Virus record (IMG/VR): IMGVR_UViG_3300045241_000122
Coordinates: 1 to 37,483 of that record
DNA from: a virus
Direction: 5' to 3' (one strand)
Length of the DNA: 37,483 nucleotides
In this document: piece after piece, positions 10,818 to 26,668 of the stretch
Layout of the letters: every line of letters begins with the position of its first letter
How positions within the stretch are numbered: the first letter of the stretch is position 1
Notes under the pieces: generated by a model
The model's database searches: none
Told to the model about the DNA's origin: nothing
What the model saw: only the letters and a program-made list of their open reading frames with translations
Translations under genes and position numbers: made by a program

Positions 10818-10835
10818 AAATCAGGCGGCGTGATA

Positions 10836-11171: not shown

Positions 11172-11184
11172 AGGAGATCAAGCC

Positions 11185-12059: not shown

Positions 12060-12112
12060 TTGCGCGTAGCTTGACGACCTCGTTAAGGTGCTCTTAACTG
12101 CTTGCATCAAGC
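12060..12112 (+). promoter_or_regulatory. Probable promoter/operator of the rightward recombination operon
   Basis: TTGACG (12071-12076) is followed 17 bases later by TTAACT (12094-12099). The -35 lies in a degenerate operator (TTGCGC-GTA-GCTTGA, 12060-12074), and GTTAAG-GTGCT-CTTAAC (12082-12098) plus TCAAGC half-sites surround the -10. The first gene starts at 12135. Confidence 0.45.
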
Positions 12113-12134
12113 TCAAGCAGGGAGGACGAGAAGC

Positions 12135-12338
12135 ATGGGTGACGCCGAGCGCGACCGGGTGCGGAACGACGCAGTGCAATTAGCCACCGCCGCGCTGCAA
12201 GACGCCCGACGGGCCGGCGCTTTCGACATTGTCGCTTCATCCCTGCTGATCGCGATCTGCGCGTTGGTCCGTCGCGAGATCGGCGACGACGCGCTCGCCG
12301 ATCTGCTCACCCTCGCAATGCTGGGGGATTGCGCGTGA
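12135..12338 (+). CDS. Small Ala-rich helical protein
   Basis: A 67-residue protein from ATG 12135, with GGAGG at 12121. It is almost wholly helical (DAVQLATAALQDARRAGAFD then IVASSLLIAICALVRREIGD), with a moderately hydrophobic middle that could be a buried helix rather than a membrane span. First gene of the rightward operon; its stop overlaps the GTG start of the exonuclease. No family recognised. Confidence 0.6.
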   Translation: MGDAERDRVRNDAVQLATAALQDARRAGAFDIVASSLLIAICALVRREIGDDALADLLTLAMLGDCA

Positions 12339-13288: not shown

Positions 13289-13628
13289 AATCCGTGACCA
13301 TAATACTTTCATCCCGGTTATTTGCATCCGCCCGGTTCCGACGAACGCAGAACAGCGATACTTGCTGCGTCGCGATGGGTATCGCGGGGATGCGACGGAG
13401 CGCTGCATCATCATGATCGACGCGCAGTGCCGCGGCGTTTCTTACGATCCCTATGACTGGCAGGACGATACTAGAACCAAGCCAGTTACTAGAACCAAGC
13501 CAGTGGCGCACAATTTCATCGCAGAGCATTGGGACGAGCTGCGGGACGGCGACGTCGTGGACGTCGCGTTCATTCTCGGCGAAGCCGAAGAAAGAAAGAT
13601 CAGCGAGCGCGAAGAGTATCCAGCATGA
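13269..13628 (+). CDS. Hypothetical phage protein between exonuclease and RecT
   Basis: A 119-residue protein. The first 60 residues form a likely beta-rich domain (VKCIEIRDHNTFIPVICIRP then AEQRYLLRRDGYRG) of a type often found beside recombination genes in rhizobial prophages; I know of no function. The middle contains an exact in-frame 17-base duplication encoding TRTKPV twice. The C-terminus is acidic. It overlaps the exonuclease end by 20 bases and RecT by ATGA (13625-13628). Confidence 0.65.
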   Translation: MEVKCIEIRDHNTFIPVICIRPVPTNAEQRYLLRRDGYRGDATERCIIMIDAQCRGVSYDPYDWQDDTRTKPVTRTKPVAHNFIAEHWDELRDGDVVDVAFILGEAEERKISEREEYPA

Positions 13629-14629
13629 ACCAAGCCGCCGCCGCCGAGCGCCCGAACGAAATCGCCGTCATTCGCCACGAGTTGGCCGGCATGACCGAGC
13701 AATTCAAATCCGCTTTGCCGGCGCATATACCCGTGGAGCGTTTCGTTCGTGTGGTGATGACGGCGCTGCAGAACAATCCCGACCTCGTGCGCAAGTGCAG
13801 CCGGCGGTCGCTGTGGAATTCGGCGATGAAGGCCGCGCAGGACGGCCTTTTGCCGGACGGCCGCGAGGGCGCGATCGTCGAATACGGCGGCGAGGCCCAA
13901 TGGCTGCCAATGATCGCCGGGCTTCGCAAGAAGGCCCGCAACTCGGGCGAAATCGCGACGTGGGATGCCCAGGTCGTGCATGCGAAGGACGCCTTCGAAT
14001 TCGAGCTGGGCGACGAGCCTTACATCAGGCATCGACCTTGCCTCGACGAGGAGCCCGGCCAGGTGATTGCGGCCTACAGCGTCGCAGTGCTCAAGAGCGG
14101 CGAGAAGTCCCGTGAGGTCATGTCGATTGCCGCCATCGAAAAGGTCCGCGCGCGCTCGCGCGCCAAGAAGGGCGGCCCGTGGTTTTCGGATTTTGAAGAA
14201 ATGTGCAGGAAGACCGTCGCGCGCCGGCATAGCAAAGTCCTGCCGACATCGACAGACCTCGACGATCTCCTGCGCCGCGACGATGACCTGTATGACATGA
14301 AAGGCGCGGGCGACGCCGCCATCGCCGGCGGAGACAAGCACAAAACGCTCGCCGGCCGCCTCGACGCATTGGCGGGGCCAGTCCGAGAAACCGCCCTGGC
14401 ATTTCGGGAACACCGCCAGGACGGCGACGAAGGGGCGGGCGCATCAGAGGCTCCAACGCCCGCCCCCGCACAGAATTCCGCTGCGGACGTTCAGCCGCCT
14501 GCAGCGGCGCAGGCCGCGGGCTCGCCGAGCCCGGCGAAGACGCCCGCGGCCGAACCAGAGGCGCGTGCATACCGGTCGGGAACCGGTGGCGCGCGCCTCT
14601 CTGATGTCTCGGACGTAGGGGGGAAATGA
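13625..14629 (+). CDS. recT: RecT-family single-strand annealing protein
   Basis: A 334-residue annealase. Residues 1-225 carry the RecT fold: RFVRVVMTALQNNPDLVRKC, SLWNSAMKAAQDGLLPDGRE, QWLPMIAGLRKKARNSGEIA and FEEMCRKTVARRHSKVLP, all in canonical order. After about 250 the protein is an Ala/Pro-rich low-complexity tail, as in several phage RecT proteins. The start at 13625 is fixed by the ATGA overlap with the preceding gene. It pairs with the YqaJ nuclease for Red-like recombination and end processing of phage DNA. Confidence 0.9.
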   Translation: MNQAAAAERPNEIAVIRHELAGMTEQFKSALPAHIPVERFVRVVMTALQNNPDLVRKCSRRSLWNSAMKAAQDGLLPDGREGAIVEYGGEAQWLPMIAGLRKKARNSGEIATWDAQVVHAKDAFEFELGDEPYIRHRPCLDEEPGQVIAAYSVAVLKSGEKSREVMSIAAIEKVRARSRAKKGGPWFSDFEEMCRKTVARRHSKVLPTSTDLDDLLRRDDDLYDMKGAGDAAIAGGDKHKTLAGRLDALAGPVRETALAFREHRQDGDEGAGASEAPTPAPAQNSAADVQPPAAAQAAGSPSPAKTPAAEPEARAYRSGTGGARLSDVSDVGGK

Positions 14630-14633
14630 TCCC

Positions 14634-15209
14634 ATGAAGTCGATGGCAGTGGCCGAAGGCCGCAAGATCGCCCGCCCGCTCAAAGTGCTCGTCCCTATGA
14701 TCCAGAGCGAGTTGCAGCAGGGCAATACCGCCGGTCGCGAACACTACAGGCGCGCCGGAGAGATGCTGCTTGAGGCCAGAGAACAGTGTTCCAACTTCGG
14801 CCGATGGTTGAAGGACAACTTCGATCTGAGCCGCGCTACCGCTTACGCCTATATGCGATGGGCTCAATTGTCTAGTGGGCCTAGACAAGGTGGCCCTACC
14901 AGTCTGCAAGAGATGACTGGCGCCACCGAACGCCGCCGCGAGGAGCGCCAATCCAAGCAGCAACAAGCTTTCCGTCGCATTCTGCGCGATGTGGATGTGG
15001 CACGCGACGATTTTGTGAAAGAGCGACAAGCCCGCGAGGAGGAAGTCCGATTGCATCGCGAGCTTGCCGAACAACTTGTCGATGCCGGCTACCGCGCATT
15101 GGCCACACGTCTACATCCGGATCGCGGCGGATCGAAAGACGCAATGATGCGGCTCAACCGTGTCCGCGATGAACTGAAGCAAATCGCTCAATCGAGGAGA
15201 TATATCTAA
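14634..15209 (+). CDS. Protein with N-terminal DUF3102-like region and C-terminal J-domain-like HPD motif
   Basis: A 191-residue protein. Residues 30-78 (REHYRRAGEMLLEAREQCSN then FGRWLKDNFDLSRATAYAYM) match the pattern of DUF3102-like phage proteins. After a charged coiled coil (95-150), the last 45 residues read LVDAGYRALATRLHPDRGGS followed by KDAMMRLNRVRDELKQ: a helix, HPD loop and helix as in the DnaJ J-domain. This suggests an interface with host DnaK, as phages and plasmids use in replication. The J-domain is truncated or minimal (helices II-III only); helix I may be the preceding coil. The start at 14634 follows RecT by four bases. Confidence 0.65.
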   Translation: MKSMAVAEGRKIARPLKVLVPMIQSELQQGNTAGREHYRRAGEMLLEAREQCSNFGRWLKDNFDLSRATAYAYMRWAQLSSGPRQGGPTSLQEMTGATERRREERQSKQQQAFRRILRDVDVARDDFVKERQAREEEVRLHRELAEQLVDAGYRALATRLHPDRGGSKDAMMRLNRVRDELKQIAQSRRYI

Positions 15210-15446
15210 ATGAGTACTGCCATAGCATCAAAGCCTGCCAGCGTAATGCGCACCTATACGCAGCAGGTCCGCGACCACACTTCGGCAATGGCGCGCATCC
15301 AGGATCAGTATTTCGCTACGCTCAAACGCGCCGAGGCCCAATACTTTGATGGTGTCAAACGCATCACCGAAGAAGTTATGCGCGAGACAGAGCCAGTCGC
15401 AGAAGCGGCGGGAAAGGCAGAAGCACAAGCGACAGCGGCGGAATGA
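15210..15446 (+). CDS. Small coiled-coil protein
   Basis: A 78-residue protein starting immediately after the J-domain gene. Hydrophilic; residues 15-70 are predicted helical (YTQQVRDHTSAMARIQDQYF then GVKRITEEVMRETEPVAEAA). No motif. Followed within four bases by a strong terminator, so it may be the last gene of the strongly transcribed part of the operon. Confidence 0.6.
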   Translation: MSTAIASKPASVMRTYTQQVRDHTSAMARIQDQYFATLKRAEAQYFDGVKRITEEVMRETEPVAEAAGKAEAQATAAE

Positions 15447-15449
15447 ACC

Positions 15450-15489
15450 ATGGCGCGCCAACGGCAGGCCGAGAAGCGCGCCATTTTTT
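15450..15489 (+). terminator. Rho-independent terminator within the rightward operon
   Basis: Perfect 9-bp stem (ATGGCGCGC, 15450-15458, with GCGCGCCAT, 15476-15484), a 17-base loop and a run of six T (15484-15489). It follows the stop at 15446 by three bases and precedes the next gene by 14. It would separate the exo/recT genes from the distal small genes unless transcription is antiterminated. Confidence 0.75.
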
Positions 15490-15503
15490 CATAGAGTATA
15501 GCC

Positions 15504-15692
15504 ATGACCAACATCCCCCGCGCCAGGATCGAGCTGATGCGAATTGCGCGGTCGCTGACTTTCGTCGATCCCGGCACGGCGCGCCGCATCGAGATAGTCG
15601 TCGAGGAGTATTTGGATGGCGGCGATTACGACGCTTCTGCAGGAAATGGAAATGACCTCTTCACGGCGATGGTGGAAGCGGGGGCAGATTGA
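15504..15692 (+). CDS. Small hypothetical protein
   Basis: A 62-residue acidic helical protein (IPRARIELMRIARSLTFVDP then GTARRIEIVVEEYLDGGDYD). It starts just after the terminator at 15450-15489 and its stop overlaps the next ATG (TGATG). No family recognised. Confidence 0.55.
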   Translation: MTNIPRARIELMRIARSLTFVDPGTARRIEIVVEEYLDGGDYDASAGNGNDLFTAMVEAGAD

Positions 15693-15922
15693 TGGGCATC
15701 AAGCACGTGGCAATCCCGTTCGGTGCTCGCTTCGGGCGGCTGCACGCGCAGGCGCGGACCTTCGGCGATAAAAGGGGCGCGCGATACACGTTTCGATGCG
15801 AGTGCGGGAACACGATCGTCGCCCACGCAGTCGACGTGCGCCGCGGCCAGCGAAAGACGTGCGGCTGTTTCTTGCGCTATCGGACCAAGCCGCCGGTGCC
15901 GCTGCCGGACAAGACACCATGA
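15692..15922 (+). CDS. Small zinc-ribbon-like protein
   Basis: A 76-residue basic protein with four cysteines in a ribbon arrangement: FRCECGN (C-x-C), then a beta-like VVAHAVDVRRGQ-type segment and KTCGCFL (C-x-C). This pattern with FGRLHAQ and RYTFRCECGN resembles the small DNA-binding ribbon of phage HNH/AP2-associated proteins. ATG at 15692 overlaps the previous stop; its own stop overlaps the next ATG (ATGA, 15919-15922). Zinc binding is inferred from spacing only. Confidence 0.6.
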   Translation: MGIKHVAIPFGARFGRLHAQARTFGDKRGARYTFRCECGNTIVAHAVDVRRGQRKTCGCFLRYRTKPPVPLPDKTP

Positions 15923-16365
15923 GCAGCGACACCGACACCATTCCTGTGCCGTGCAACGGCTGCCGCGCGTGCTGCCGCCATGAGCTGGTGGTGGTCGTGC
16001 CCGAGGCCGGCGACGATCCGGCGAGCTATGACACCGAGGTGATCCAAGGCCTCACCGTCCTGCGCCAGCGGCCGAATGGTGATTGCATCTATCTCGATAA
16101 TCTCGGCTGCACCATCCATGATCGTGCGCCGGCGATCTGCCGGCGGTTCGATTGCCGGCGTTATTTCCTCTCGATGCACCGCAACGAGCGCCGTGCGATC
16201 GCGCGGCTCAACAGCGCCAAGGAGCCGCTGTTCGAGGCGGCCCGCGCTCGGCTGCATACGCTCACCATGGCCGAGCGCGACGAAGCGATCAGGCATCGTC
16301 GGCCAAGTCACCCGATCACGGCGCAGACGGCCAAATGGCTCAAGCCGAAGGAGGCCACGTCATGA
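15919..16365 (+). CDS. YkgJ-family Cys-cluster protein, copy 1 (CxxCxxCC)
   Basis: A 148-residue protein with the YkgJ signature: VPCNGCRACCRH near the N-terminus, then GDCIYLDNLGCTIHDRAPAI and CRRFDCRRYF, giving eight conserved cysteines. YkgJ proteins are annotated as zinc/iron-chelating; their role in phages is unknown. Two more members lie at 21009-21560 and 30516-30944. The C-terminal 60 residues are helical and basic. The ATG overlaps the previous stop (ATGA). Confidence 0.8.
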   Translation: MSSDTDTIPVPCNGCRACCRHELVVVVPEAGDDPASYDTEVIQGLTVLRQRPNGDCIYLDNLGCTIHDRAPAICRRFDCRRYFLSMHRNERRAIARLNSAKEPLFEAARARLHTLTMAERDEAIRHRRPSHPITAQTAKWLKPKEATS

Positions 16366-16418
16366 GCATTTCGATCACGGCGCTCGGCTTCAAATACCAG
16401 GCCGAGGGCATCGATTGA
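16362..16418 (+). CDS. Possible 18-residue peptide in the overlap chain
   Basis: ATG 16362 overlaps the stop of the YkgJ-like gene (ATGA) and the stop TGA 16416-16418 overlaps the TTG start of the next gene (TTGA). The peptide is MSISITALGFKYQAEGID. Its only support is that both ends fit the four-base overlap pattern of this operon; it may serve only to carry ribosomes to the next start. Confidence 0.3.
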   Translation: MSISITALGFKYQAEGID

Positions 16419-16588
16419 CGACGGTCAAAACGTTCTTCGAGTTCGTCGGATTGCTGGTCACCGGGGTCGCGATGGTCGCCACGCTTGCGGTTCTGCAGAT
16501 TGCGACGCTCAAGAGAATGCACCGCCGCCGAGGTTTGAAGCATGCCAACAAAAAAATCGGCCAGACGAAAGCGGGTAACCGAGGCTGA
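16415..16588 (+). CDS. Small single-span membrane protein, TTG start
   Basis: A 57-residue protein read from TTG 16415: a short amphipathic start (TTVKTFFEF), one membrane span (VGLLVTGVAMVATLAVLQIA, about residues 11-30) and a strongly basic tail (KRMHRRRGLKHANKKIG). N-out, C-in by the positive-inside rule. No ATG is available before the span. It overlaps the following gene by 47 bases in another frame. Function unknown. Confidence 0.5.
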   Translation: MTTVKTFFEFVGLLVTGVAMVATLAVLQIATLKRMHRRRGLKHANKKIGQTKAGNRG

Positions 16589-16820
16589 AATCTGGGCAGC
16601 CTTTGTCGTAGTCTACGCCAAGCGCGGATATGTCGATTTTGATGATCCTCCAGATTGGGATCCGAAATTACTCAGGGCTCTCGGTGAGGTGATGGCTACC
16701 AATTTTGCTTTGAATGTCGATTGCAGTATGTCTGGAGTTCCAGTGAAAACACTTCGGAAGATGTGTTTTGCTCATTTCAAGAGTTATGTTGGCAAATCTG
16801 CGTCCGCGAAAGGGCCATGA
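16542..16820 (+). CDS. Small hypothetical protein
   Basis: A 92-residue protein with a basic start (MPTKKSARRKRVTEAEIWAA) and a helical remainder (DPKLLRALGEVMATNFALNV). Base composition is more AT-rich than its neighbours, hinting at separate acquisition. Stop overlaps the next ATG (ATGA). No family recognised. Confidence 0.55.
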   Translation: MPTKKSARRKRVTEAEIWAAFVVVYAKRGYVDFDDPPDWDPKLLRALGEVMATNFALNVDCSMSGVPVKTLRKMCFAHFKSYVGKSASAKGP

Positions 16821-17014
16821 AAACCGCCGTCATTGATTACACGAACTGGCGCGGCGAGCGCCGCAATCGGCGCATCCGGCCGACGGGGCTGGCGTACACG
16901 TCGAACGAATATCACGCACAGCCGTGCTGGATGGTGCTCGCGCGCGACCTCGACATCAACGAGGACAGAACATACGCGCTGCAGAATATCCATCGTTGGG
17001 AGGAGACCGAGTGA
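16817..17014 (+). CDS. Small WYL-like beta-barrel protein
   Basis: A 65-residue protein resembling a single WYL-type Sm-like module: VIDYTNWRGERRNRRIRPTG, SNEYHAQPCWMVLARDLDIN, then RTYALQNIHRW. WYL domains bind nucleic acids or ligands in regulators of phage defence; here the module stands alone with no HTH. ATGA overlap at 16817 and TGATG overlap with the next gene at 17014. Assignment is by pattern and moderate. Confidence 0.6.
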   Translation: MKTAVIDYTNWRGERRNRRIRPTGLAYTSNEYHAQPCWMVLARDLDINEDRTYALQNIHRWEETE

Positions 17015-17295
17015 TGCATACGAAAGATTTCCTCGCGCAGGAGCTTCGCGCCGCCGGCCTTCACGAGATGGCCGAGCTAGCCGCCAACGGGTTTTATCAT
17101 GATTTCGAAAGTCCGCTGGCGCTGCCGGAGACGCAGCTCGATCGCGACCTGTTCGCGGCCGGCACGCCCGAGGCGATGGCGCTGCGCAAGCGGCACCATA
17201 ACGGCGAATTCGATGCATCGGTCGAGGAGAGCGAGGCGTGGGCCGCCAGCGCCGACGGGCGCGAGGCCATCAACAAGCTCATTCGCGGGGAGTAA
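17014..17295 (+). CDS. Small hypothetical acidic protein
   Basis: A 93-residue helical protein (FLAQELRAAGLHEMAELAAN near the start; EAMALRKRHHNGEFDASVEE later). Negatively charged, no cysteines. It follows the WYL-like gene with a TGATG overlap and is seven bases ahead of the next gene. No family recognised. Confidence 0.55.
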   Translation: MHTKDFLAQELRAAGLHEMAELAANGFYHDFESPLALPETQLDRDLFAAGTPEAMALRKRHHNGEFDASVEESEAWAASADGREAINKLIRGE

Positions 17296-17301
17296 AGCAC
17301 C

Positions 17302-18018
17302 ATGAACATCCACGCATTGCGTCAGACCCTGCCGCCGCTGCCGGAGCGGATGAAACATCTGCCGCTCAACCATCAAGGTTTTCCCGTTCCATGGTTCGTT
17401 CAGTGGTTCGAGGACGGAAAACCTTGCGATACTGGCCGGGGCGAGCCTGATTTCCGCGTGATCGCCGCGCCAAAGCTCGGTACCGCTGTGCGCCAGAAAC
17501 GCTGCTGGGTCTGCGGCGGCTTTCTCGGCCGCCATCTCGCATTCGTGATCGGTCCGATGTGTGCCATCAACCGGGCGATTTCCGAGCCGCCGTCGCACCT
17601 CGAATGCGCGATCTTTTCCGCGACGGCGTGTCCGTTCCTGTCGCAGCCGCGGATGCGGAGGGACGAGAAGGATTTGCCGGACGGCAAAGCGGCGGCCGGC
17701 TTCGGCATCAAGCGCAATCCGGGCGTCGCCTGTGTGTGGGTGACGCGGAGCTTCACCACCTTCCGGCCGCAGGCTGGCGCGCCTGGCGTGCTGTTTCAGC
17801 TGGGCGAACCGGAAGAGGTTCTTTGGTTCGCGCACGGCCGGGCGGCAACCCGCGAGGAGGTCATGGCGTCAATCAACAGCGGCTATCCGGCGCTGCTCGA
17901 GATCGCGGCGCAGGAGGGGTCCGAGGCTGTTCGCGCACTTGATCAGTACCGCAAGCGCGCCATGCCGCTGCTGCCGAAGGAGGGGGCGCATGACGCCACG
18001 GAGCAGGAGCAGGGATGA
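17302..18018 (+). CDS. Hypothetical phage protein with CWVCG motif
   Basis: A 238-residue protein. Its middle carries KRCWVCGGFLGRHLAFVIGP, MCAINRAISEPPSHLECAIF and SATACPFLSQPRMRR, with five cysteines and a conserved-looking EPPSH motif; this architecture is common in rhizobial prophages but has no assigned function. The C-terminal 60 residues are helical. The N-terminal MNIHALRQTLPPLPERMKHL is probably the true start (seven bases after the previous stop). Metal or nucleotide binding is possible, not shown. Confidence 0.65.
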   Translation: MNIHALRQTLPPLPERMKHLPLNHQGFPVPWFVQWFEDGKPCDTGRGEPDFRVIAAPKLGTAVRQKRCWVCGGFLGRHLAFVIGPMCAINRAISEPPSHLECAIFSATACPFLSQPRMRRDEKDLPDGKAAAGFGIKRNPGVACVWVTRSFTTFRPQAGAPGVLFQLGEPEEVLWFAHGRAATREEVMASINSGYPALLEIAAQEGSEAVRALDQYRKRAMPLLPKEGAHDATEQEQG

Positions 18019-18281
18019 AAACCCACGAGCTGAAATCCTGGCCGGATTTCTTCGAGCCGGTATTCAACGGGAGCAAGACATTCGAGCTTCGGGTTGACGA
18101 TCGGCACTTCGCCGTCGGCGACGTGCTCCACCTGCGGGAATGGGACGATCGGGCCGGGAAGTACACCGGCCGCGAGCTGCGCAGAACGATCACTTGCGTC
18201 CTGGCCGGCATCGGCGGCGGCGCCATCGCGCCGGTGCGCGGGCTAAGCCGCGGTTATGCGATCCTGTCGCTGGCGCCATGA
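18015..18281 (+). CDS. DUF3850 (ASCH/PUA-like) protein
   Basis: An 88-residue protein with the full DUF3850 pattern: HELKSWPDFFEPVFNGSKTF, ELRVDDRHFAVGDVLHLREW, GRELRRTITCVLAG and YAILSL at the end. The fold is ASCH/PUA-like and probably binds RNA or modified nucleotides. Normal family length. ATGA overlap with the previous gene and with the next (18278-18281). Confidence 0.85.
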   Translation: MKTHELKSWPDFFEPVFNGSKTFELRVDDRHFAVGDVLHLREWDDRAGKYTGRELRRTITCVLAGIGGGAIAPVRGLSRGYAILSLAP

Positions 18282-18436
18282 TATGCGACGATTGCCGGCC
18301 AATGATGCGAGGGCCATGGTTGGAGGTCCGGGACAGGAAGGCGGGATGCGGGGCCGGCAAATGGTGTGGTTTGACCGTCACAATGCCGCCGATCCACCCA
18401 AACCGTGAGGCTTCGACAAACGCTCAGCCGGAATGA
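18278..18436 (+). CDS. 52-residue Cys-rich protein
   Basis: Short frame from ATG 18278 (ATGA overlap with the DUF3850 gene) to TGA 18434-18436. It has C-x2-C at residues 3-6 (MICDDCRPMM) and two further cysteines (AGCGAGKWCGL), which could make a small zinc site. The stop is followed at once by operator D and then xis, so this is the last gene of the rightward operon. Confidence 0.5.
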   Translation: MICDDCRPMMRGPWLEVRDRKAGCGAGKWCGLTVTMPPIHPNREASTNAQPE

Positions 18437-18440
18437 CTCG

Positions 18441-18455
18441 TAAAGCTGGGCTTTA
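18441..18455. promoter_or_regulatory. Operator D, perfect palindrome ahead of xis
   Basis: TAAAGC-TGG-GCTTTA: exact 6-3-6 inverted repeat, followed by TAACC. It merges into a TATAAC hexamer (18453-18458) that could act as a -10 for xis/int. The xis ATG is at 18482. It is the most symmetrical copy of the dispersed motif. Confidence 0.55.
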
Positions 18456-18481
18456 TAACCGCGTTCAAAAGGATTAAACCC

Positions 18482-18808
18482 ATGACGGGCACCCTGAAGA
18501 CGCCCCGCGAGGCCGCCGAGCGGCTTGGCGTTTCGGTCAAAACCATCATAGGGCTGGTCGACGATGGTGCGTTGCGATTTGTCGATGTGGGCCGGGGCAA
18601 GGTCAAGCGCCGACTCAAGTTCAGAGATGAATATCTCGACGAATTCGTCGCCGACCGCTCGCGCAAGGAACCACCGCCATGTCGGTCAGGCTACGCCCCA
18701 AATATTCACCCTATTACCAATTCGAGTTCGAAATCGACGGTCGCCCATTTTCGGGCTCAACGAAATGCAGGAACCGGCGCGAGGCCGAAAGGTTCGAAGC
18801 CGACCTAA
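18482..18808 (+). CDS. xis: Excisionase-like MerR-type HTH protein
   Basis: A 108-residue protein whose first 60 residues are a winged-helix/MerR-like HTH_17 domain (TPREAAERLGVSVKTIIGLV then DDGALRFVDVGRGKVKRRLK, RDEYLDEFV), typical of phage excisionases. The last about 45 residues are read out of frame across the integrase 5' end (130-base overlap), look unconstrained, and exceed the usual 60-75 residue length. It should direct Int toward excision and bend attP DNA. Operator D precedes it, placing excision under the phage repressor. Confidence 0.75.
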   Translation: MTGTLKTPREAAERLGVSVKTIIGLVDDGALRFVDVGRGKVKRRLKFRDEYLDEFVADRSRKEPPPCRSGYAPNIHPITNSSSKSTVAHFRAQRNAGTGARPKGSKPT

Positions 18809-19866
18809 AGGCCAAGATTCGCCAGGACAATGAAAAGGCCAGGGCCGCCGGCAGGGTGCCGCTTCGCCTCGGCGATCTGCGCGAACGCTATTGGCAGGCG
18901 ATCGGCCAGCACCATGCCGGCGCCGGCAACACCAAGCGCCTGCTCGATGTCGTGGTCGGCTTCCTCGGCGCCGACAAGCTGATTACCGATATCACCGGCG
19001 ACGATGTCGACCGCCTCGTCAACATGCGGGCAACGACCCGCGTGCGCGGCGAGTTGCTCAAACCGGCGACCGTCAACGACACCACCGAGCAGCTCAAAAA
19101 GCTGTTCACCTATGCCAAGCACCTCGGGATCGTGGTGCCGAACCCGCCGACATGGCGCGCGTTCTGGAAGAAGGTCGAGCCGCGCAAGGCGCGCCGGCTC
19201 AAACCCGGCGAGGCCGCCCAACTCGCCGCCGCCATCCCCGACGACTATGCCCCCTATTTCGCATTCCTGCGGGCGACCGGCATGCGCGCCAATTGCGCGC
19301 GGCGGCTGCGCTGGGATCAGGTCGACTGGGACTGCGGCGAGATCAAGACTTTCGACAAGGGATCGGAGAACATCGACCCGATCACCGCCGCGGTGCGGGC
19401 GATCCTTTGGCCGCTGCGCGGTCACCATGATGAGTTCGTATTCACCTATGTGGCCGATCGCACCCGCACCTATCGCCTGGGAAAGAATGGCCGGGAGCGT
19501 GAGGAGGCCCGCGTCGCCGGCGAACGCTATCCGCTGACCTTCGAGGGCACCAAGACTGCGTGGCGCCGCGCGCGCGCGGCCTCGGGGGTGAAGGATTTTC
19601 GGCGCCATGATCTGCGCAGCGATTTTGGCTCGACCATGCTCTCGGCCACCGGCGACCTGGAGAAGGTGCAGCAGGCGCTCCACCACAAGAAGATCACCAC
19701 CACCGCGGCCTCTTATGCTCAGGGCACCAAGCCCGAGGTGCGGGCTGCGATCGAGGCGGCGCAGGGCGCGATCGGCGGCTGGTGCAGTTCGCCCCTTGCG
19801 GCCCCGTTACACGAAGTCGACGAAAGGTCCGGCAAAAGGTCCGGCAAACTGTCCCAGCGCAGATAG
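18679..19866 (+). CDS. int: Tyrosine integrase
   Basis: A 395-residue tyrosine recombinase. N-terminal arm-binding domain (residues 1-55), core-binding SAM-like domain (62-160), catalytic domain from about 175. Catalytic residues: Arg203 (ATGMRANCARRLRW), His310 and Arg313 (HDLRS), His336 (ALHHKKITT) and the nucleophile Tyr346 (TTAASYAQ). All are present, so it should be active. The C-terminus contains a tandem RSGK-RSGK encoded by the two left attP arm repeats. It inserts the phage at a tRNA-Pro(GGG) gene, judged from the core at 19911-19955. Confidence 0.93.
   Translation: MSVRLRPKYSPYYQFEFEIDGRPFSGSTKCRNRREAERFEADLKAKIRQDNEKARAAGRVPLRLGDLRERYWQAIGQHHAGAGNTKRLLDVVVGFLGADKLITDITGDDVDRLVNMRATTRVRGELLKPATVNDTTEQLKKLFTYAKHLGIVVPNPPTWRAFWKKVEPRKARRLKPGEAAQLAAAIPDDYAPYFAFLRATGMRANCARRLRWDQVDWDCGEIKTFDKGSENIDPITAAVRAILWPLRGHHDEFVFTYVADRTRTYRLGKNGREREEARVAGERYPLTFEGTKTAWRRARAASGVKDFRRHDLRSDFGSTMLSATGDLEKVQQALHHKKITTTAASYAQGTKPEVRAAIEAAQGAIGGWCSSPLAAPLHEVDERSGKRSGKLSQRR
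19825..19848 (+). repeat. Left-arm direct repeats of attP (two copies)
   Basis: Exact tandem of the 12-mer AGGTCCGGCAAA (19825-19836, 19837-19848), inside the last codons of int. The 10-bp heart GTCCGGCAAA recurs on the other side of the core at 20041 and 20072. Spacing and orientation fit integrase arm-type sites. Confidence 0.65.
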
Positions 19867-19910
19867 GACAGGCCTGTGGCACAAGGGCTTTTGTGATCGA
19901 GCACCTCGTC

Positions 19911-19955
19911 CTGGGGGACTGGGGGTCCCGAGTTCAAATCTCGGCGCTCCGACCA
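19911..19955 (+). other. attP: attP core: 3' half of a tRNA-Pro(GGG) gene
   Basis: The segment reads as tRNA from the anticodon loop onward: loop CTGGGGG (U33, anticodon GGG, G37), ACTGG stem strand, variable loop GGGTC, T-arm CCGAG-TTCAAAT-CTCGG (19928-19944), acceptor strand CGCTCCG, discriminator A and CCA (19953-19955). The 5' half is missing: no CGGAGCG partner exists upstream and the anticodon stem's 5' strand does not pair. This is the usual identity block that restores a host tRNA gene after integration. Not a functional tRNA gene by itself. Confidence 0.75.
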
Positions 19956-20040
19956 CTCTAAGCCATTCAAACCATGGCACAAATTGCGGTTATCGGACGC
20001 TCCAGCCACCACGAACAAATGAGAACAAATGCCCCTAAAA

Positions 20041-20092
20041 GTCCGGCAAAACCACCGGCAGAGAACGGATGGTCCGGCAAAAGTTAGGCAAA
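20041..20092 (+). repeat. Right-arm direct repeats of attP (three copies)
   Basis: GTCCGGCAAA at 20041-20050 and 20072-20081, and a degenerate GTTAGGCAAA at 20083-20092, all in the same orientation as the left pair. With the core between, the region 19825-20092 has the arm-core-arm structure of a complete attP. No gene lies in 19867-20169 apart from these sites. Confidence 0.6.
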
Positions 20093-20115
20093 AAGAACAG
20101 ACGCGAACGCGCTGG

Positions 20116-20130
20116 TAAAGCCAAGCTTGA
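20116..20130. promoter_or_regulatory. Operator E ahead of the 20.17-kb operon
   Basis: TAAAGC-CAA-GCTTGA, identical to operator A over all 15 bases. It precedes the gene starting at 20170 and is followed by a second palindrome at 20133. Confidence 0.55.
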
Positions 20131-20132
20131 AC

Positions 20133-20149
20133 CGCCATAAGTTATGGCG
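20133..20149. promoter_or_regulatory. 17-bp palindrome next to operator E
   Basis: CGCCATAA-G-TTATGGCG: perfect 8-bp arms around one base. It lies between operator E and the GAGGAGG ribosome site of the 20170 gene. Possible second regulator site or a leader hairpin. Confidence 0.4.
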
Positions 20150-20169
20150 CACATCAGAGGAGGCACTAC

Positions 20170-20415
20170 ATGAAGGAACTCGATCGCTTGGTTAGGAATC
20201 ACGGACCAGGGACCGTGACGAACGCGCCGCTGGCTGTCCTCGAAAAGCTCCAAAAGCATTTGGCCACCTGCCGCACCGCGGCAAGCCACGTCCAAAAAAT
20301 CAAGAATAAATTCCCGGGGCTATCGTCAGCATCGCCGACCCAGGCAAGCTTACCGACGTCGCCTACGAACTCACCGGCGTCGCCTACGAATTCCCCGACA
20401 CCGCAGGCGCCATGA
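20170..20415 (+). CDS. Small protein with Ser/Pro/Thr repeat tail
   Basis: An 81-residue protein: a basic helical first half (LDRLVRNHGPGTVTNAPLAV then LEKLQKHLATCRTAASHVQK) and a repetitive tail with SPTNSPASPTNSPTP. A good GAGGAGG precedes the ATG. The stop overlaps the next start (ATGA). First gene right of attP; no family recognised. Confidence 0.55.
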   Translation: MKELDRLVRNHGPGTVTNAPLAVLEKLQKHLATCRTAASHVQKIKNKFPGLSSASPTQASLPTSPTNSPASPTNSPTPQAP

Positions 20416-20678
20416 CCGACGAAGACTTCCGCGCCGTCCTGCGAGCCGAGCTGGCCCCGATCCGGGCGCAGCTCGACGGGCTACCGCTGATCTCCCGCTC
20501 GTTGGTGGTGCTGCAACAAGAGGTCCGCGCGCTCAAAGCCGCGTTCAACGATTTCGCCCGCACCAACGTCACCGCGGGCGAAATCGAGGCGCTGCACGCC
20601 GACGTGAACCGCGTGATGGCCGAGAACGCCGCGCTTGAGGCCCGCCTCGCCACGCTGGAGCGGCTCAATGAACGCTGA
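20412..20678 (+). CDS. Coiled-coil protein
   Basis: An 88-residue protein, coiled coil over most of its length (SRSLVVLQQEVRALKAAFND, then IEALHADVNRVMAENAALEA, RLATLERL). It resembles the class of short coiled-coil phage proteins found near 2976 in this window only in general character. ATGA overlap with the preceding gene; it overlaps the following one by 11 bases. Confidence 0.6.
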   Translation: MTDEDFRAVLRAELAPIRAQLDGLPLISRSLVVLQQEVRALKAAFNDFARTNVTAGEIEALHADVNRVMAENAALEARLATLERLNER

Positions 20679-21012
20679 GCACGATGTCAAGCCGATTGGT
20701 GGGGCTTCGAATGAAACGCGGCGACCCAGTGCGAGTTTTGGACCGGGCGCGCTTGCAGGATCGAACATGACGCGGACGGAAGTTCTCGCAAAAATCTCAA
20801 CTGATCTCGGGTGGCACGGTCCGAACGGATCGGTGCTCCGTTATGTCGTGCTGGAGCGCGACGCCGCCGAGGCGCTGCTCGACCCGATCGACGAGCGCGC
20901 GCTGCTGTCTGAAATCTTTCGGCTCGTGGGGTTGCTCAATGACGCCATGCCCGAGGACGAGCGGGCGCCGCCGCCTCAAACAAACGTAACCATTGAGGAT
21001 AGCGCGGTATGA
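20668..21012 (+). CDS. Small hypothetical protein
   Basis: A 114-residue protein. From about residue 34 it is well structured: MTRTEVLAKISTDLGWHGPN, GSVLRYVVLERDAAEALLDP and a helix (RALLSEIFRLVGLLNDAM). The first 33 residues look loose, so ATG 20767 is a serious alternative start. Stop overlaps the next gene (ATGA, 21009-21012). No family recognised. Confidence 0.55.
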   Translation: MNAEHDVKPIGGASNETRRPSASFGPGALAGSNMTRTEVLAKISTDLGWHGPNGSVLRYVVLERDAAEALLDPIDERALLSEIFRLVGLLNDAMPEDERAPPPQTNVTIEDSAV

Positions 21013-21560
21013 CCGACGCCCCGCGACGCCAGTGCGGCGACTGCCAGCTCTGCTGCAAACTCTTGCCGATGCAGGAATTTGACAAGCCGGCCGGCGAGCG
21101 GTGCAAGCACCAGCGCCACGGCGTCGGCTGCAACATCTATCCTCAGCGGCCGAGGGCGTGCCGGCTCTGGAATTGCCGTTGGCTTGGCGGTGACAACACG
21201 GGCGCGCGGCCGGATCATGCTCACTATGTCGTCGACGTCATGCCGGACTACATCACGGTGGTGCCGCTCGACGGCAGCGAGCCGACCAACGTGCCGGTGC
21301 TGCAGATCTGGATCGATCCGAAATTCCCCGATGCGCACCGCGACAAGGAGCTGCGCGCCTACATCGAAGGCACGGCCATGCCGGCGCTGATACGGATCAA
21401 CGCGCGCGAGGGCTTCGTCATTGCGCCGCCCAACGTCAACGCCGACGGCGTCTGGTACGAAGGCGTTGGCGTCGGGGTTTCGCTGGGACGGGAGCATACG
21501 CCCGAGGAGAAGCTCGCCGTGATCGGCCCGATGAAGATCACCTTGGAGTTGGACGAATGA
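21009..21560 (+). CDS. YkgJ-family-like Cys-cluster protein, copy 2
   Basis: A 183-residue protein: RQCGDCQLCCKLLPM at the N-terminus (C-x2-C-x2-CC), then RCKHQRHGVGCNIYPQRPRA and CRLWNCRWL, the same cluster order as the 15919 gene, with an extra about 110-residue C-terminal beta-rich domain (HYVVDVMPDYITVVPLDGSE, VPVLQIWIDPKFPDAHRDKE). Metal chelation is the family annotation; no partner is evident. ATGA overlaps on both ends. Confidence 0.75.
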   Translation: MTDAPRRQCGDCQLCCKLLPMQEFDKPAGERCKHQRHGVGCNIYPQRPRACRLWNCRWLGGDNTGARPDHAHYVVDVMPDYITVVPLDGSEPTNVPVLQIWIDPKFPDAHRDKELRAYIEGTAMPALIRINAREGFVIAPPNVNADGVWYEGVGVGVSLGREHTPEEKLAVIGPMKITLELDE

Positions 21561-21889
21561 ACGCGCCCGGTTATTACATACTGGGCGCCGACAATCAGAT
21601 CATCGCGGTCGATGCGATGACATGGGCGAGATGGTTCGAAAACATGCCCAATCGAACCGTCGGCTGGACACAGATCACCAGCGAGATCCTGGTCTCGACG
21701 GTGTTCCTCGGCCTAGATCATCGTTTTTCCGGCCGAGGGCCGGCGATTCTATTCGAGACGGTGGTGTTCGGCGGCCCACACGACGGCGACATGTGGCGGT
21801 ATTCATCATGGGACGACGCGGAAGCGGGGCACGCCGCGGCGGTGCGGAATGTGCGCGCGGCGATCGGGCAGAACGTCGGTAAAATATGA
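21557..21889 (+). CDS. Hypothetical phage protein
   Basis: A 110-residue protein (YYILGADNQIIAVDAMTWAR, WFENMPNRTVGWTQITSEIL, VSTVFLGLDHRF, then LFETVVFGGPHDGDMWRYSS). I recall this motif set in many phages of rhizobia and other proteobacteria, always without function. The WFE and FLGLDH segments are the likely conserved core. ATGA overlaps on both ends. Confidence 0.7.
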   Translation: MNAPGYYILGADNQIIAVDAMTWARWFENMPNRTVGWTQITSEILVSTVFLGLDHRFSGRGPAILFETVVFGGPHDGDMWRYSSWDDAEAGHAAAVRNVRAAIGQNVGKI

Positions 21890-22068
21890 GCGACGATCAT
21901 CCCCGGCTATTTAGGTTCGTGGGCTTTGCCCCTAGTTCAAAATCTTCCACAGGGCCACAGCACCTAAGAGCGCCAAGATCAGATACCCACCCTGTAACGG
22001 ACACATCGTGCATCTCGCTTTCGCAGTATTCCCTCACGCAGCCGCCGACGAGGACCCAGCGCGCATAA
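21886..22068 (+). CDS. Doubtful 60-residue protein at the convergent end
   Basis: Frame that starts with an ATGA overlap (21886-21889) but whose product (LFRFVGFAPSSKSSTGPQHL...) is low in structure, and it runs 35 bases into the oppositely oriented methyltransferase gene. It may be real in its first half only. Kept because of the overlap pattern. Confidence 0.25.
   Translation: MSDDHPRLFRFVGFAPSSKSSTGPQHLRAPRSDTHPVTDTSCISLSQYSLTQPPTRTQRA
21932..22006 (-). CDS. Possible 24-residue membrane peptide
   Basis: Short leftward frame after the methyltransferase stop. The peptide has a short polar start (MCPLQGG), one hydrophobic span (YLILALLGAVALW) and KILN, like very small phage membrane proteins. 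No clear ribosome site. It overlaps the doubtful rightward frame at 21886-22068; at most one of the two is likely real. Confidence 0.35.
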   Translation of the reverse strand: MCPLQGGYLILALLGAVALWKILN

Positions 22069-22672
22069 GAAGCGCGAGCTGCCTGCCGAATGGTTCCCTT
22101 CGATCAATTATCTCGAACCGCTTCGCGATCTCCGCCTCGAATTCCTCACGCGGATAGCCGGGATGGCCGAGGAAAGGCTCGTAAAAATCCGTTGCGATAG
22201 CGAAGCGCGCTCCCGGACTCCCGTAGGCCAACATGTTGTTCAACACGTCGCGCCAACCAACCAAATGATCCAACGCATTCCAGCAAATCACGGTATCGGC
22301 GCGCAGATTGGGGATGAACTCCTCCGCCGGCTGCGCGTAGGTTGTGATGCCCGACCACCACTCCGCAGGAACAAGCAGCTGGTATGCGTCCGCGAGCGGG
22401 TCGATGACGGCGCAAGGCGCGAACGGGGGACGCGGGCCGCAGCCGATGTCGAGCACGGCTCCCTGCGGATCAATGAACTCCTTGACCTCGTTCCACTGCG
22501 ATGTGAACCCGGGATCATCGAGGTGCCCAAGTGGCAAGTGCTCGCGCCACCAGTTGAGTTCGAAGGGCTGATGAAGGTCGCGCCAAGCGCGCCAGGTCCG
22601 CAGGTCTTCGCCGTTCTTTCGATCTTCTGCCAGCCTGGCGATGGCGCCGATGTCCATTTCACATGCCGCCAT
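22034..22672 (-). CDS. SAM-dependent methyltransferase (class I)
   Basis: A 212-residue methyltransferase: motif I VLDIGCGPRPPFAPCAVIDP (about residues 73-92), acidic loop EWWSGITTYAQPAEEFIPNL, motif IV-like ADTVICWNALDHLVGW, and a C-terminal sheet region. The protein is class I and small; the substrate could be a sugar, lipid or small molecule. It begins right after the 22673 gene's stop (TGA then ATG). With the fused methyltransferase in the 34548 gene it makes two non-DNA methyltransferases in the late region. Confidence 0.8.
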   Translation of the reverse strand: MAACEMDIGAIARLAEDRKNGEDLRTWRAWRDLHQPFELNWWREHLPLGHLDDPGFTSQWNEVKEFIDPQGAVLDIGCGPRPPFAPCAVIDPLADAYQLLVPAEWWSGITTYAQPAEEFIPNLRADTVICWNALDHLVGWRDVLNNMLAYGSPGARFAIATDFYEPFLGHPGYPREEFEAEIAKRFEIIDRREPFGRQLALLMRAGSSSAAA

Positions 22673-22873
22673 TCATTCAATCGTGGCGGTCTCGCCATCG
22701 ATGACGACCGCGCCTGAGCCGGCGCGTTTCAAATCCTCATAGGTCAAATTCTTGATCTTGCCGCCCTGGCGCAATTCATCTCTTGCGTCACCGATTACGC
22801 CGCCGTCGCCTTCAAAGCGCGCCTGCATAACGATCCTGTCGCCATCCGTGTGAAAGAACCAACGCTCGCTCAC
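22673..22873 (-). CDS. Small protein directly after the MuF-metalloprotease gene (candidate immunity or partner)
   Basis: A 66-residue protein, beta-rich then helical (RWFFHTDGDRIVMQARFEGD, ARDELRQGGKIKNLTYEDLK, AVVIDGETATIE). It starts one base after the stop of the MuF fusion gene, the position where polymorphic-toxin operons carry the immunity protein. No homology known to me; the immunity role is purely positional. Confidence 0.55.
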   Translation of the reverse strand: MSERWFFHTDGDRIVMQARFEGDGGVIGDARDELRQGGKIKNLTYEDLKRAGSGAVVIDGETATIE

Positions 22874-22874
22874 A

Positions 22875-24779
22875 TCAACCTCGCACTATTGTCTTGCGCA
22901 AAAGCGTCGTCACATTGGGAAAATGATCAGCCACATGAAGCTCAGGCGCAGCGCCGCCACCGTTGATTTCGCCAAACACCTCCGCAAACGCCTCCTGGCG
23001 GCCGGCCCCCCCAAGCTGAAGGAAATATGCCAATTTTTCGGATATAGCCTCGTCCATCATCGACCTGTCCGCATTATGTGCCGTCTTGAATTCGTTGGTG
23101 CTGCTGAAGGATTCCAGCGCAGCATCATAAGCATGTCCAACCTCATGCCTTAGCACACCTTCGGCGCGACCAGTTGATATTTCCAGTCCCGATACACGAC
23201 CGATATATTTTTCTGTGACAATCGCCTTTTTCACACCGCCATGATAGAGACCTTCTGCATTGTCCCAGGTCGTGCCTTTAGGCCATCCACGCGGCGTAAC
23301 ACCCTTGAATTCCGGCATGATCTCCGTCACACGGCGGCCGACAGCAATCTTGATTCCGGCTTCTCGAAGCTTGTCCCGCACCGGCACAGGCAGCGCCTCT
23401 ATGGCATCAAGCATCTTCGCCTTGAATTCCGGTGACGTTTCCCCGTAGTGCTCGACCAGGCCGGCTATGGACGAAGGCCCGGCCGGCTCAGGCTCACGGC
23501 TCGCACGAGAGGGCGCAAAGGCGCACCGGCAGTTCGGGTGCGCGGGAATTAGGCCCTCGGCCTCGTCGAGCGAGTAGGGGCCCTCGTCGCTGATGTCCTG
23601 ACACTCGTCACAAACGTCATCGTCCCCAGCTGTGACGATGTTGACCAGATTGCCGCCCAGCGTCGCCTGGAGCCGCTTCTCCGCCGCCTCGATCCGCGCC
23701 ATTGTCTCCTGGGACGGCGTCTCCTTCCGGCCAGCGCGCGCCGTGGCGTCGGGCTTCTGCCCCCCCGGCCGCGTCATCGCTGCATACTGGCGATAGAGAT
23801 CCTCGCGCTTGTACTGCTGCGCGGCCCGCAGCGCCTCGCCCTCAGCCTGCCGCCGCGCTACATATTCCGCGGTGCCGCGCTTTAGCCCCTGCGCGAATTC
23901 AGACTCGGCCCGGACCAATCGTTCGCTCTCTTGCTGCAGTTCCTGCTCGATCTGGCGGTACGCCTTCTCGCGACCCTGCCGCTTGGACAGCGTGGCGAAC
24001 CGCTCCCGCCAATGTTTCTGGGCCGTGGAGATCAGTGTTTGCAACGGCACCCGGACCGCCGGGGCCGCAACTTCCTCGGCCTCAATCGGTATCGCATCGG
24101 CCAGCCCACGCCGCCGCACCCGCTCGGGAATGGTCCCGACATGCGTCACGCCGACGCTGCGGAAAGCGCTCAGCGTCGAGGTCGCATGCGTCCTGGCGAT
24201 CACGTCCTCGGCCATCGTCCTGGTGCGATGACGCATCGTCCGGATCACGCCGGCCAGGGCGTTCGCCATCTTGGTCGGCGAGTGGCTCGCCATCATCGCC
24301 TGCGTGGCCAGCCGGACGAGTTGCTGCTGCGCCGCGGCCACGATGCCGCGCAATTCGCTTGTCGCGAGGCTCTCCATGGCGGCGATCCGCGCCGGATCGA
24401 CCCGGCCGCCGGGGACGAGCCCATCGGCGCGTTGCTGGGCTCGCTGGGCGGCCTTTCGAACGTGGGGTCTCAGCCATACCCCACCGGCGAAAACCTTCTG
24501 GGCAAGCTCGCCTTCCAGCCATGCGGCAAACCCCTCCCCTTTGTCGGCATGCGGGAGCCGCCCGATGCCACGCAGGCCAACGAGGTCGTGCTCGATCAGG
24601 GCTTGTCGGAGAGTGCGGCCAAATGTCTGCCAGCGTCGATCGCCCTCGGCCTTCATCCGTATACGGAGGCCGGACGTGCCCGTGGGATCACGGCGCCCGG
24701 CCTGCGCATCCGCGACCGCCGACCGGGGACTGTTGGGGGGGGGTGGTCGGTGACCGCAAAGGGAATGTTCCGCATACAT
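22875..24779 (-). CDS. MuF-type head morphogenesis protein fused to a zinc-metalloprotease-like toxin domain
   Basis: A 634-residue protein. N-terminal helical region to about 230; coiled coil rich in Gln/Glu/Arg at 255-370; MuF C-terminal motif at about 388-420 (CDECQDISDEGPYSLDEAEG then IPAHPNCRCAF) typical of phage Mu gpF-like minor head proteins. After a Pro-rich hinge (about 430) a separate domain (445-634) contains HEVGH at 545-549 (HExxH) and EAFAEVF at 596-602, the zincin arrangement seen in anthrax-lethal-factor-like (ATLF) toxins. MuF proteins with exchangeable C-terminal toxins are known. The true start is unsure: a run of nine C lies within the first 15 codons. The portal gene is upstream. 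Confidence 0.78.
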   Translation of the reverse strand: MYAEHSLCGHRPPPPNSPRSAVADAQAGRRDPTGTSGLRIRMKAEGDRRWQTFGRTLRQALIEHDLVGLRGIGRLPHADKGEGFAAWLEGELAQKVFAGGVWLRPHVRKAAQRAQQRADGLVPGGRVDPARIAAMESLATSELRGIVAAAQQQLVRLATQAMMASHSPTKMANALAGVIRTMRHRTRTMAEDVIARTHATSTLSAFRSVGVTHVGTIPERVRRRGLADAIPIEAEEVAAPAVRVPLQTLISTAQKHWRERFATLSKRQGREKAYRQIEQELQQESERLVRAESEFAQGLKRGTAEYVARRQAEGEALRAAQQYKREDLYRQYAAMTRPGGQKPDATARAGRKETPSQETMARIEAAEKRLQATLGGNLVNIVTAGDDDVCDECQDISDEGPYSLDEAEGLIPAHPNCRCAFAPSRASREPEPAGPSSIAGLVEHYGETSPEFKAKMLDAIEALPVPVRDKLREAGIKIAVGRRVTEIMPEFKGVTPRGWPKGTTWDNAEGLYHGGVKKAIVTEKYIGRVSGLEISTGRAEGVLRHEVGHAYDAALESFSSTNEFKTAHNADRSMMDEAISEKLAYFLQLGGAGRQEAFAEVFGEINGGGAAPELHVADHFPNVTTLLRKTIVRG

Positions 24780-24800
24780 TGGGGCGTCTCGGGCCAGCCG

Positions 24801-25097
24801 TCAACCGCGGTCGCGCTCGGCGATTGCCCACGCGTTCAAGATCGCCGCCATCTCGTGGGCGGTCTGCGGCGGCTTGTAGCCCTCATGGCTAACAATCTCG
24901 GTCGCCAGCTTCATGGCGTCGTGAAACGTCAGCGCAGTCATCGCTTTGGCGACGCACTGCAGCGGCGCATCAGCCCGCCGCGACGTATGGCCTGGATAGC
25001 CGACGCTCCCCACCGGTCCGAGGCCACGTGGTGGCCCATTGATAGGCGTGCTGGCGGGGACGGGAATGTCGAAATCAGGATCGGAATCATAGCTCAT
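24801..25097 (-). CDS. Small structural-region protein
   Basis: A 98-residue protein; start set at ATG 25097 because GGAG lies six bases before it, while the ATG four codons earlier has no ribosome site. Pro/Gly-rich first half (DFDIPVPASTPINGPPRGLG), helical second half (CVAKAMTALTFHDAMKLATE, EMAAILNAWAIAERDRG). It lies between portal and MuF, a position often held by small head accessory proteins. Function unknown. Confidence 0.6.
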   Translation of the reverse strand: MSYDSDPDFDIPVPASTPINGPPRGLGPVGSVGYPGHTSRRADAPLQCVAKAMTALTFHDAMKLATEIVSHEGYKPPQTAHEMAAILNAWAIAERDRG

Positions 25098-25114
25098 CAC
25101 GGGCTCCATTCGGT

Positions 25115-26668
25115 TTAACCGGTGGCCCCCATTTCCTCGGGATTAGGGCTGGGCGGCGCTTGCTTGCCAACCGGCGCCGGCGCCCCGCCGAATCCAATCG
25201 GCGCCACTGGCATCTCCGGCTCCTCGGGCTCAGCGCCATATTTGAGGATCGAGGCGTCCAGGCCAGGATAGGTGGCGTCTTCGATCAGCTGATTGACGAC
25301 GCCCTCGCGGAATGCGTCCTCGTTGATGAGGCCGATCGTCGAATAAATCTGCGTGGCCTGCGCCTTCTGGTACGCGATCGCCGCCTTCTCCGCCTCGCCC
25401 ATCTGCCAAAGCGCATTCCATTCATAATGGATGTCGGGGTCTGGCCGCCCGAACGCGGAACGCATCATCACCTGGTCGAGCATCCCGAGCTTGGGCGCGA
25501 CCTCGTTCTTCTGCATGTCGACGCAGGCGTCGTAATAATTCCGCAGATCGTCCGGGCCGCCCGCGGTGCTCCCGCCCTGCATCCCACGCCCTTGGGCCTG
25601 GCCGAATAGGCGGCTCACCGGCATGTCCGCCGCGGCGGCGACGATGGTCGTGAACTCGTGCAGGATCATCGGCAGCCCGGAGTAGTTTGTCTGCACTCGC
25701 TGCCACTCCTCCTCCTTATCGAGGAGCAGCGCGCTGATGACGCTCTTGGTATGCGCCGACAAGGTGAACCGCTCTATCAGCTTATTCTTATACTCTGGCG
25801 TGGTCAGGCGCTCCGACATATCCGGGATTTTAACGACGTCCAGCTTGCCGTCATTCACAATTGCCGCAATCGACTGCAGGCTGCTCGTGAATCCCATCAT
25901 CGTATCGACGACGGTCTGCAGAACGCTGTCGCCCCAGCCGCCTCCCATTGGGGCCAGCCGCCAGTCCGGCAGCTCATTGCCGGCGTACTCGAGCACGCGG
26001 CTCGGGTGAATCTGCGTCATGCCGATGCCGATGGTCGGGATCGTCTGCAGCTGCTGCCCCTGCTGTCGTCCGAACGGGATGACGTTGCGGAACCCTCCCG
26101 CCTTCGGCGCCGCCGGCGGCGGAGGCGCGGGCGCCGTGGTGCCTGCCTCGCCCTCGAAGCCGAACATCGGCGTTGCGATCGTGTAATAGGCAGGCCGCGT
26201 GTAATAAGGGTCCATCACGTTGTAGATCCGCGGGCCCGCGTTCAGCTCATAGCGATTGAGCACCACAACGTATTTGAGGCAGCCGCGCCCGCACTTCTCC
26301 AGATTGAGCGGCTGGCTCGGGTCATTGCCGTCATCCACACCGACGATCAGCGCGGCTCCGCCATAAAGGCGCGCCCGGGTGATCCATTGCTTCACCTTGC
26401 GCTGCAGGTCCATCGTCTTTTCGATGGTCTCCAGCGCCTCGATCTGACTTTGCGACGCTTGCCACGCACGCCACTCGCGCGTCACATCCTCGGCCGGAGC
26501 ATCGCAAATTTTCCGCGCCAGCCAGTCTCCGCGATACATATTCTCAAGCTGATTGCGATCGAGCAGAGTGAAGTCGTATTGAACGCTCCTGCTCGGATCG
26601 AGCCCAGGCGTGCCGAGGCCGGTCACGAAATTTTTGAGCGTGTCGCGGACAGTTGTGTAATAGCTCAT
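25115..26668 (-). CDS. Portal protein (DUF1073-type)
   Basis: A 517-residue portal. Recognised by the N-terminal portal pattern (NQLENMYRGDWLARKICDAP, AEDVTREWRAW), ARLYGGAALIVGVDDGNDPS, PSRVLEYAGNELPDW, GDSVLQTVVDTMMGFTSSLQ, and FTTIVAAAADMPVSRLFGQA followed by a Gly-rich loop; these belong to the DUF1073/Phage_portal_3 family. It forms the dodecameric DNA entry ring. A Pro-rich insert near 180-195 and an unstructured tail are specific to this copy. The start overlaps the previous gene (ATGA). Confidence 0.9.
   Translation of the reverse strand: MSYYTTVRDTLKNFVTGLGTPGLDPSRSVQYDFTLLDRNQLENMYRGDWLARKICDAPAEDVTREWRAWQASQSQIEALETIEKTMDLQRKVKQWITRARLYGGAALIVGVDDGNDPSQPLNLEKCGRGCLKYVVVLNRYELNAGPRIYNVMDPYYTRPAYYTIATPMFGFEGEAGTTAPAPPPPAAPKAGGFRNVIPFGRQQGQQLQTIPTIGIGMTQIHPSRVLEYAGNELPDWRLAPMGGGWGDSVLQTVVDTMMGFTSSLQSIAAIVNDGKLDVVKIPDMSERLTTPEYKNKLIERFTLSAHTKSVISALLLDKEEEWQRVQTNYSGLPMILHEFTTIVAAAADMPVSRLFGQAQGRGMQGGSTAGGPDDLRNYYDACVDMQKNEVAPKLGMLDQVMMRSAFGRPDPDIHYEWNALWQMGEAEKAAIAYQKAQATQIYSTIGLINEDAFREGVVNQLIEDATYPGLDASILKYGAEPEEPEMPVAPIGFGGAPAPVGKQAPPSPNPEEMGATG

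Follow-up and report, generated by a model that had tools for sequence, protein, structure and literature searches.

A predicted tRNA-restoring attP at tRNA-Pro(GGG) lies within the genome of an uncultivated temperate phage, probably of Xanthobacteraceae

Introduction

The presence of the 3' half of a tRNA gene next to a phage integrase gene raises the question of whether the DNA that carries it is an integrated prophage or phage DNA outside the chromosome. We studied such a locus in a virus record from IMG/VR (37,483 bp, classed as linear), which was analysed over its whole length and is called here the window. The initial annotation, made from the letters alone, had read the locus as a complete attP, built like that of lambda and flanked by phage genes on both sides, and had taken the record for un-integrated phage DNA. 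We compared the locus with host tRNA genes, related attachment sites, integrated elements, and sister phages (features in Table 1).

Table 1. Features of the integration module, with distances from the first base of the core.
Feature	Positions	Strand	Evidence
xis-like gene, HTH_17/excisionase-type DNA-binding protein, cassette start	18482..18808	+	PHROG_66 excisionase E=4.7e-5; Pfam HTH_17 E=1.4e-8
Cassette xis-int-attP, replaced by a different integration module in G001 and G006	18499..20410	+	nucleotide collinearity stops, then resumes
Tyrosine integrase gene (int), 395 aa	18679..19866	+	PHROG_1 E=3.8e-43; Pfam Phage_integrase PF00589 E=2.2e-17
P-arm site 1 GTCCGGCAAA, predicted	19827..19836	+	exact; -84; within int 3' end
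P-arm site 2 GTCCGGCAAA, predicted	19839..19848	+	exact; -72; within int 3' end
attP core, 3' half of tRNA-Pro(GGG), tRNA position 32 to CCA	19911..19955	+	exact in 12 bacterial and 20 other viral contigs
P'-arm site GTCCGGCAAA, predicted	20041..20050	+	exact; +130
Possible degenerate P'-arm site CACCGGCAGA	20053..20062	+	7/10; +142; 12 bp after the preceding site; weak alone
P'-arm site GTCCGGCAAA, predicted	20072..20081	+	exact; +161
Degenerate P'-arm site GTTAGGCAAA, predicted	20083..20092	+	8/10; +172

Results

The core starts 44 bp downstream of the end of the integrase gene. The alignment of the integrase (Int) contains all the catalytic residues (R, K, HxxR, H, and Y), which identifies it as a tyrosine recombinase. 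Searches with this protein gave only weak matches in the PDB, and none in the viral contigs when single-protein patterns were used; its relatives were found through the pattern of the core instead.

The 45-mer of the core was searched in a genome collection of 84,980 species and is present, without mismatch, in 12 GTDB genome contigs. They are all alphaproteobacterial or labelled Proteobacteria, mostly Xanthobacteraceae/Hyphomicrobiales. In 10 of the 12 loci, it forms the 3' half of a complete tRNA-Pro gene whose anticodon is GGG, and the identity between window and host runs from the first base of the anticodon loop through the CCA. The proposal that the block folds as half of this tRNA is thus confirmed letter for letter by intact host genes, a search for which the initial annotation had suggested. 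ARAGORN calls no tRNA in the whole window, as expected for a half gene. When we simulated the recombination of attB with attP, using the host 5' half from locus L011 with the core and right arm of the window, the program called tRNA-Pro at attL and no tRNA at attP or attR. This simulation, together with the natural attL/attR pairs of relatives described below, supports an integration that restores the tRNA gene and takes place at the anticodon sublocation. The Islander survey reports that anticodon-loop attP sites with a 3' tRNA fragment are common and that the anticodon loop is one of the recognised sublocations of the crossover (PMC4383910). Like its anticodon-class islands and prophages, the window has an attP of about 250 bp with a tRNA-restoring 3' tDNA fragment; nothing essential differs between them, the crossover of the window being a predicted one.

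The claim that repeats flank this core on both sides also held: the 10-bp word GTCCGGCAAA occurs in two exact copies to its left and two to its right, followed by a degenerate copy. Under an order-2 Markov model, the exact word is expected 0.14 times per window on both strands, and the probability of at least four copies in 255 bp is around 2e-15. Apart from GTCCGGCAAA, just one 10-mer reaches four copies within 260 bp, and these are in the gene of a collagen-like tail fibre. Repeated sites on both sides of a core that is shared with attB argue for an arm-core-arm attP. Away from the attP, exact copies of GTCCGGCAAA are also found at positions 3186 (+), 13849 (-), and 17673 (-), above the expectation of 0.14 given above, so the arm word alone is not unique to the attP.

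The same 45-mer is present in 20 other viral contigs. Eight loci (L007, L015, L019, L020, L023, L024, L026, and L028), of which L007 is on a bacterial contig and the other seven are viral, have this core next to a related Int and carry a pair of direct repeats on the int side, at -84 to -89. Homologues of the xis-like gene stand before int in four of them (L019, L023, L024, and L026). The repeats of a pair are spaced by 12-13 bp and the repeated word differs among loci; a second pair is found past the core, at +141 to +150, in L015, L020, L023, L024, L026, and L028. Such a repeat occurs in 3-4% of random stretches from the same loci. The left pair of the window (-84/-72) is in the same register as those of its relatives. 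Its right sites (+130 and +161) are offset from the usual +147/+159 and match two of the three sites of L023 (+128, +149, and +161). Two loci form a pair: L020 consists of a phage arm, the core, and an arm, and L032 of an intact tRNA with the same right arm as L020, so that L020 is the attP, and L032 the attL, of one further type of element. A 14-kb viral contig (L027) has a tRNA-Pro 3' half at 2385-2429 and an intact tRNA-Pro at 13362-13439, 11 kb apart, and is possibly a small integrated element.

The closest integrase of an annotated phage, that of Sinorhizobium phage phiLM21 (NC_029046), is 41.6% identical over 88% of the query. This phage is reported to use tRNA-Pro(GGG) as its target and to match the 3' end of the gene over 45 bp (PMC12429752). 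We joined the ends of its record with a script and found the word GTCCCG at -84, +146, and +157 from the core. Hence, phiLM21 has the same target as the window, a core of the same length, and an arm site at -84, with its right pair at +146/+157. Unlike in the window, its int is on the P' side of the core, and its P-arm sites are therefore outside the int gene. It also differs in the arm word (GTCCCGAA instead of GTCCGGCAAA), in the sequence of the core, and in the phage backbone. No annotated phage matched the attP region of the window at the DNA level. The window has the traits of a phiLM21-type module at tRNA-Pro(GGG), i.e., a related Int and arm sites near -84/-72 and +146/+158, with a right arm that is shifted (+130/+161). 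Paired arm-type sites also flank the core in the mycobacteriophages L5, Giles, and those of cluster K, and within cluster K, related phages differ in these sites and, along with them, in the N-terminus of Int (PMC3203893). Their paired arms are like those of the window, but their hosts and targets are unrelated. The initial comparison with lambda stands for the general arm-core-arm design with a tyrosine Int, whereas the tandem pairs are in their detail closer to phiLM21 and L5. The attB of lambda is not in a tRNA gene, and lambda lacks an arrangement of its arm sites in two tandem pairs.

Both left repeats are inside the int open reading frame, where, as had been noted, they jointly encode an RSGK-RSGK tail; in-frame pairs at the end of int can also read as a KSRxKSR-like tail in relatives, of which RSGKRSGK is the version of the window. 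One could then regard GTCCGGCAAA as a codon repeat selected for this tail, and the tRNA half as a chance or vestigial fragment. The left copies do follow the int reading frame, but the right ones are outside the gene, L028 keeps the pair with a spacing of 13, out of frame and with no repeat in the protein, and phiLM21 keeps its -84 site even though its int lies across the core. We give this explanation next to no credit. Given the spacing in L028 and the position of the phiLM21 site outside int, it is most likely the DNA sites that produce the protein repeat as a side effect.

Integrated relatives should have the two arms apart. Five genomes from the Xanthobacteraceae family of genome G017 encode relatives of Int (L105-L108 and L111, 42-47% identical) that sit between two identical 45-bp copies of the tRNA-Pro(GGG) 3' half of their own host, which are separated by 16.8 to 57.5 kb. 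The copy distant from int belongs to an intact tRNA, and the other adjoins int. The repeat pair is found at the int end (-83..-89) in four of the five elements (L126, L128, L132, and L134) and at the tRNA end (+146..+148) in three (L127, L130, and L131); none of the ends of the five elements has both pairs. Every detected pair is thus at the end where integration should leave it, in line with the earlier statement that a prophage would have its two arms at opposite extremities. No host genome carrying the phage of the window itself was found, and a search, with no positive control, of 391 host-family genomes for prophages with a relative of its portal gave none. In genome G017, one contig contains an intact tRNA-Pro and a right-arm pair (L008, 3595-3672), and another an int-side junction (L007, 432-476), where an arm-like word is also present at +119. 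L007 resembles a P-core-P' junction in an assembled genome, and attP-like junctions may arise by tandem accretion at tRNA-Pro.

The flanks of the attP are also informative. A 74-kb viral contig (G001) is collinear with positions 386-18456 and 20737-37481 of the window, at about 79-98% identity, and a second one (G006) with 17014-18661 and 20411-27018. The collinearity with G001 is broken most clearly at the xis-int-attP cassette, where G001 has an unrelated integrase; G006 has an integrase 40% identical to that of the window, another tRNA-like core, and repeats of this type as well. The module is seen to change as one cassette (Table 1 for the window, 36143-40814 in G001, and 2091-3581 in G006), including Int, core, and arm word. 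A regular-expression search found no tRNA half near the integrase in the G001 cassette. The core pattern is absent from the closest phage relatives (G001-G013) because they have other cassettes or are fragmentary contigs. The left flank of the window codes for a repressor, RecE/RecT, a helicase/primase, and methyltransferases, and the right one for terminase, tail fibre, endolysin, and portal. Since the collinearity with sister phages extends on both sides of the attP, both flanks are phage DNA, as had been proposed from their genes. Elsewhere, the window encodes a serine recombinase of the DNA-invertase type (2371-3219, minus strand; PHROG_125, E=1.5e-56), two overlapping DNA methyltransferases of different families (5971-8333, minus strand; PHROG_363 and PHROG_67), and, just upstream of the terminase, a 975-aa protein (34548-37475, minus strand) with a methyltransferase-like stretch at residues 602-695.

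These results bear on the possibility that the locus is an attR, the int-side end of a prophage, with the DNA to the right of 19955 belonging to the host or to a second element. The order int, arm, and tRNA 3' half is exactly that of the left part of an attR, and the two contigs of G017 indicate that accretion of elements at tRNA-Pro may occur. Yet the arm word recurs to the right of the core, and positions 20411-37481 are collinear with two sister phages and code for the right-flank proteins listed above. This largely refutes the attR, which we consider very improbable.

A suggested check on the extent of the record turned out negative. The initial annotation had asked whether the parent contig was circular: the record is linear, has no direct or inverted terminal repeat within its 37,483 bp, and has a sister contig of 74 kb. 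A complete circle of 37 kb was rejected because G001 is collinear along the whole window and runs past both its ends. We take the window to be a linear piece of a larger temperate phage genome, in which the attP is internal and there is no prophage end.

With both arms and phage DNA around one core, the sequenced molecule was not a single integrated prophage; it was either a tandem copy or phage DNA in a free form, such as that of a virion, a circle, or a concatemer. The claim of un-integrated DNA is thus upheld in what it says of the arms and of the phage genes around them, but not in excluding a tandem double lysogen, in which the junction between the two copies would likewise form a complete attP of identical sequence. 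Arrays of this tandem type have been described at tRNA genes, with 125 listed in Islander (PMC4383910). Such an origin requires two copies of one phage in tandem, no host DNA was recognised in the contig, and the same core is found between phage arms in other viral contigs; we regard it as unlikely. An excised circle in a cell would give the same junction too. From the sequence identity, the arm repeats, the conserved geometry, the integrated relatives, and the collinear flanks, we conclude that the region is almost certainly the attP of a temperate tailed phage of Hyphomicrobiales, probably of Xanthobacteraceae, and that the source molecule was free phage DNA or a tandem copy.

Discussion

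Judging from its sequence, the module is a standard tRNA-restoring attP of a tyrosine integrase, and of a known type. By analogy with characterised tyrosine integrases, Int would bind the 10-bp arm sites, in tandem at -84/-72 on the P side and at +130..+172 on the P' side, and bridge them to the core. Strands would be exchanged with the host tRNA-Pro(GGG) gene where the 45-bp identity begins, on its 5' side, and the crossover would probably span the anticodon loop (CTGGGGG). The host 5' half would be kept and joined to the identical phage 3' half, restoring the tRNA at attL, and a 3' half would be left next to int at attR. The attL is expected to read as the host 5' tRNA half, then the core, then CTCTAAGCCATTCAAACC. 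The xis-like gene would drive excision.

The analysis assigns an uncultivated temperate phage to a host group and to an integration site, both of them well supported. It also shows that free phage DNA can be told from a prophage when a contig contains an intact attP and is compared with sister phages. The comparison of the cassettes also leads us to favour, with reservations, a joint explanation: the positions of the arms are fixed by the architecture of the Int-DNA complex, the arm words diverge from one Int to the next (GTCCGGCAAA, GTCCCACCAA, GTCCCGGAAT, CACCGGAG, and CCCGCACACT), and xis-int-attP is exchanged as a unit between near-identical phages, which would so be retargeted. If true, this integrase family would be a natural series from which to read arm-site specificity from the N-terminus of Int. 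Sites of this kind, alike in geometry but not in arm word, could help to decode this specificity or to construct vectors for site-specific integration in laboratory strains of Xanthobacteraceae.

Some relatives of Int seem to use another target. In genomes of the Xanthobacteraceae family, six of them (L109, L110, L113, L114, L115, and L120) have KSRKKSR-type tails, most with a 12-bp repeat pair. Their genes end 40-60 bp before a stretch that codes for a competence protein like ComEC/Rec2 (in L114, PF03772 with E=2.8e-25). This position points to a second attachment site, within comEC.
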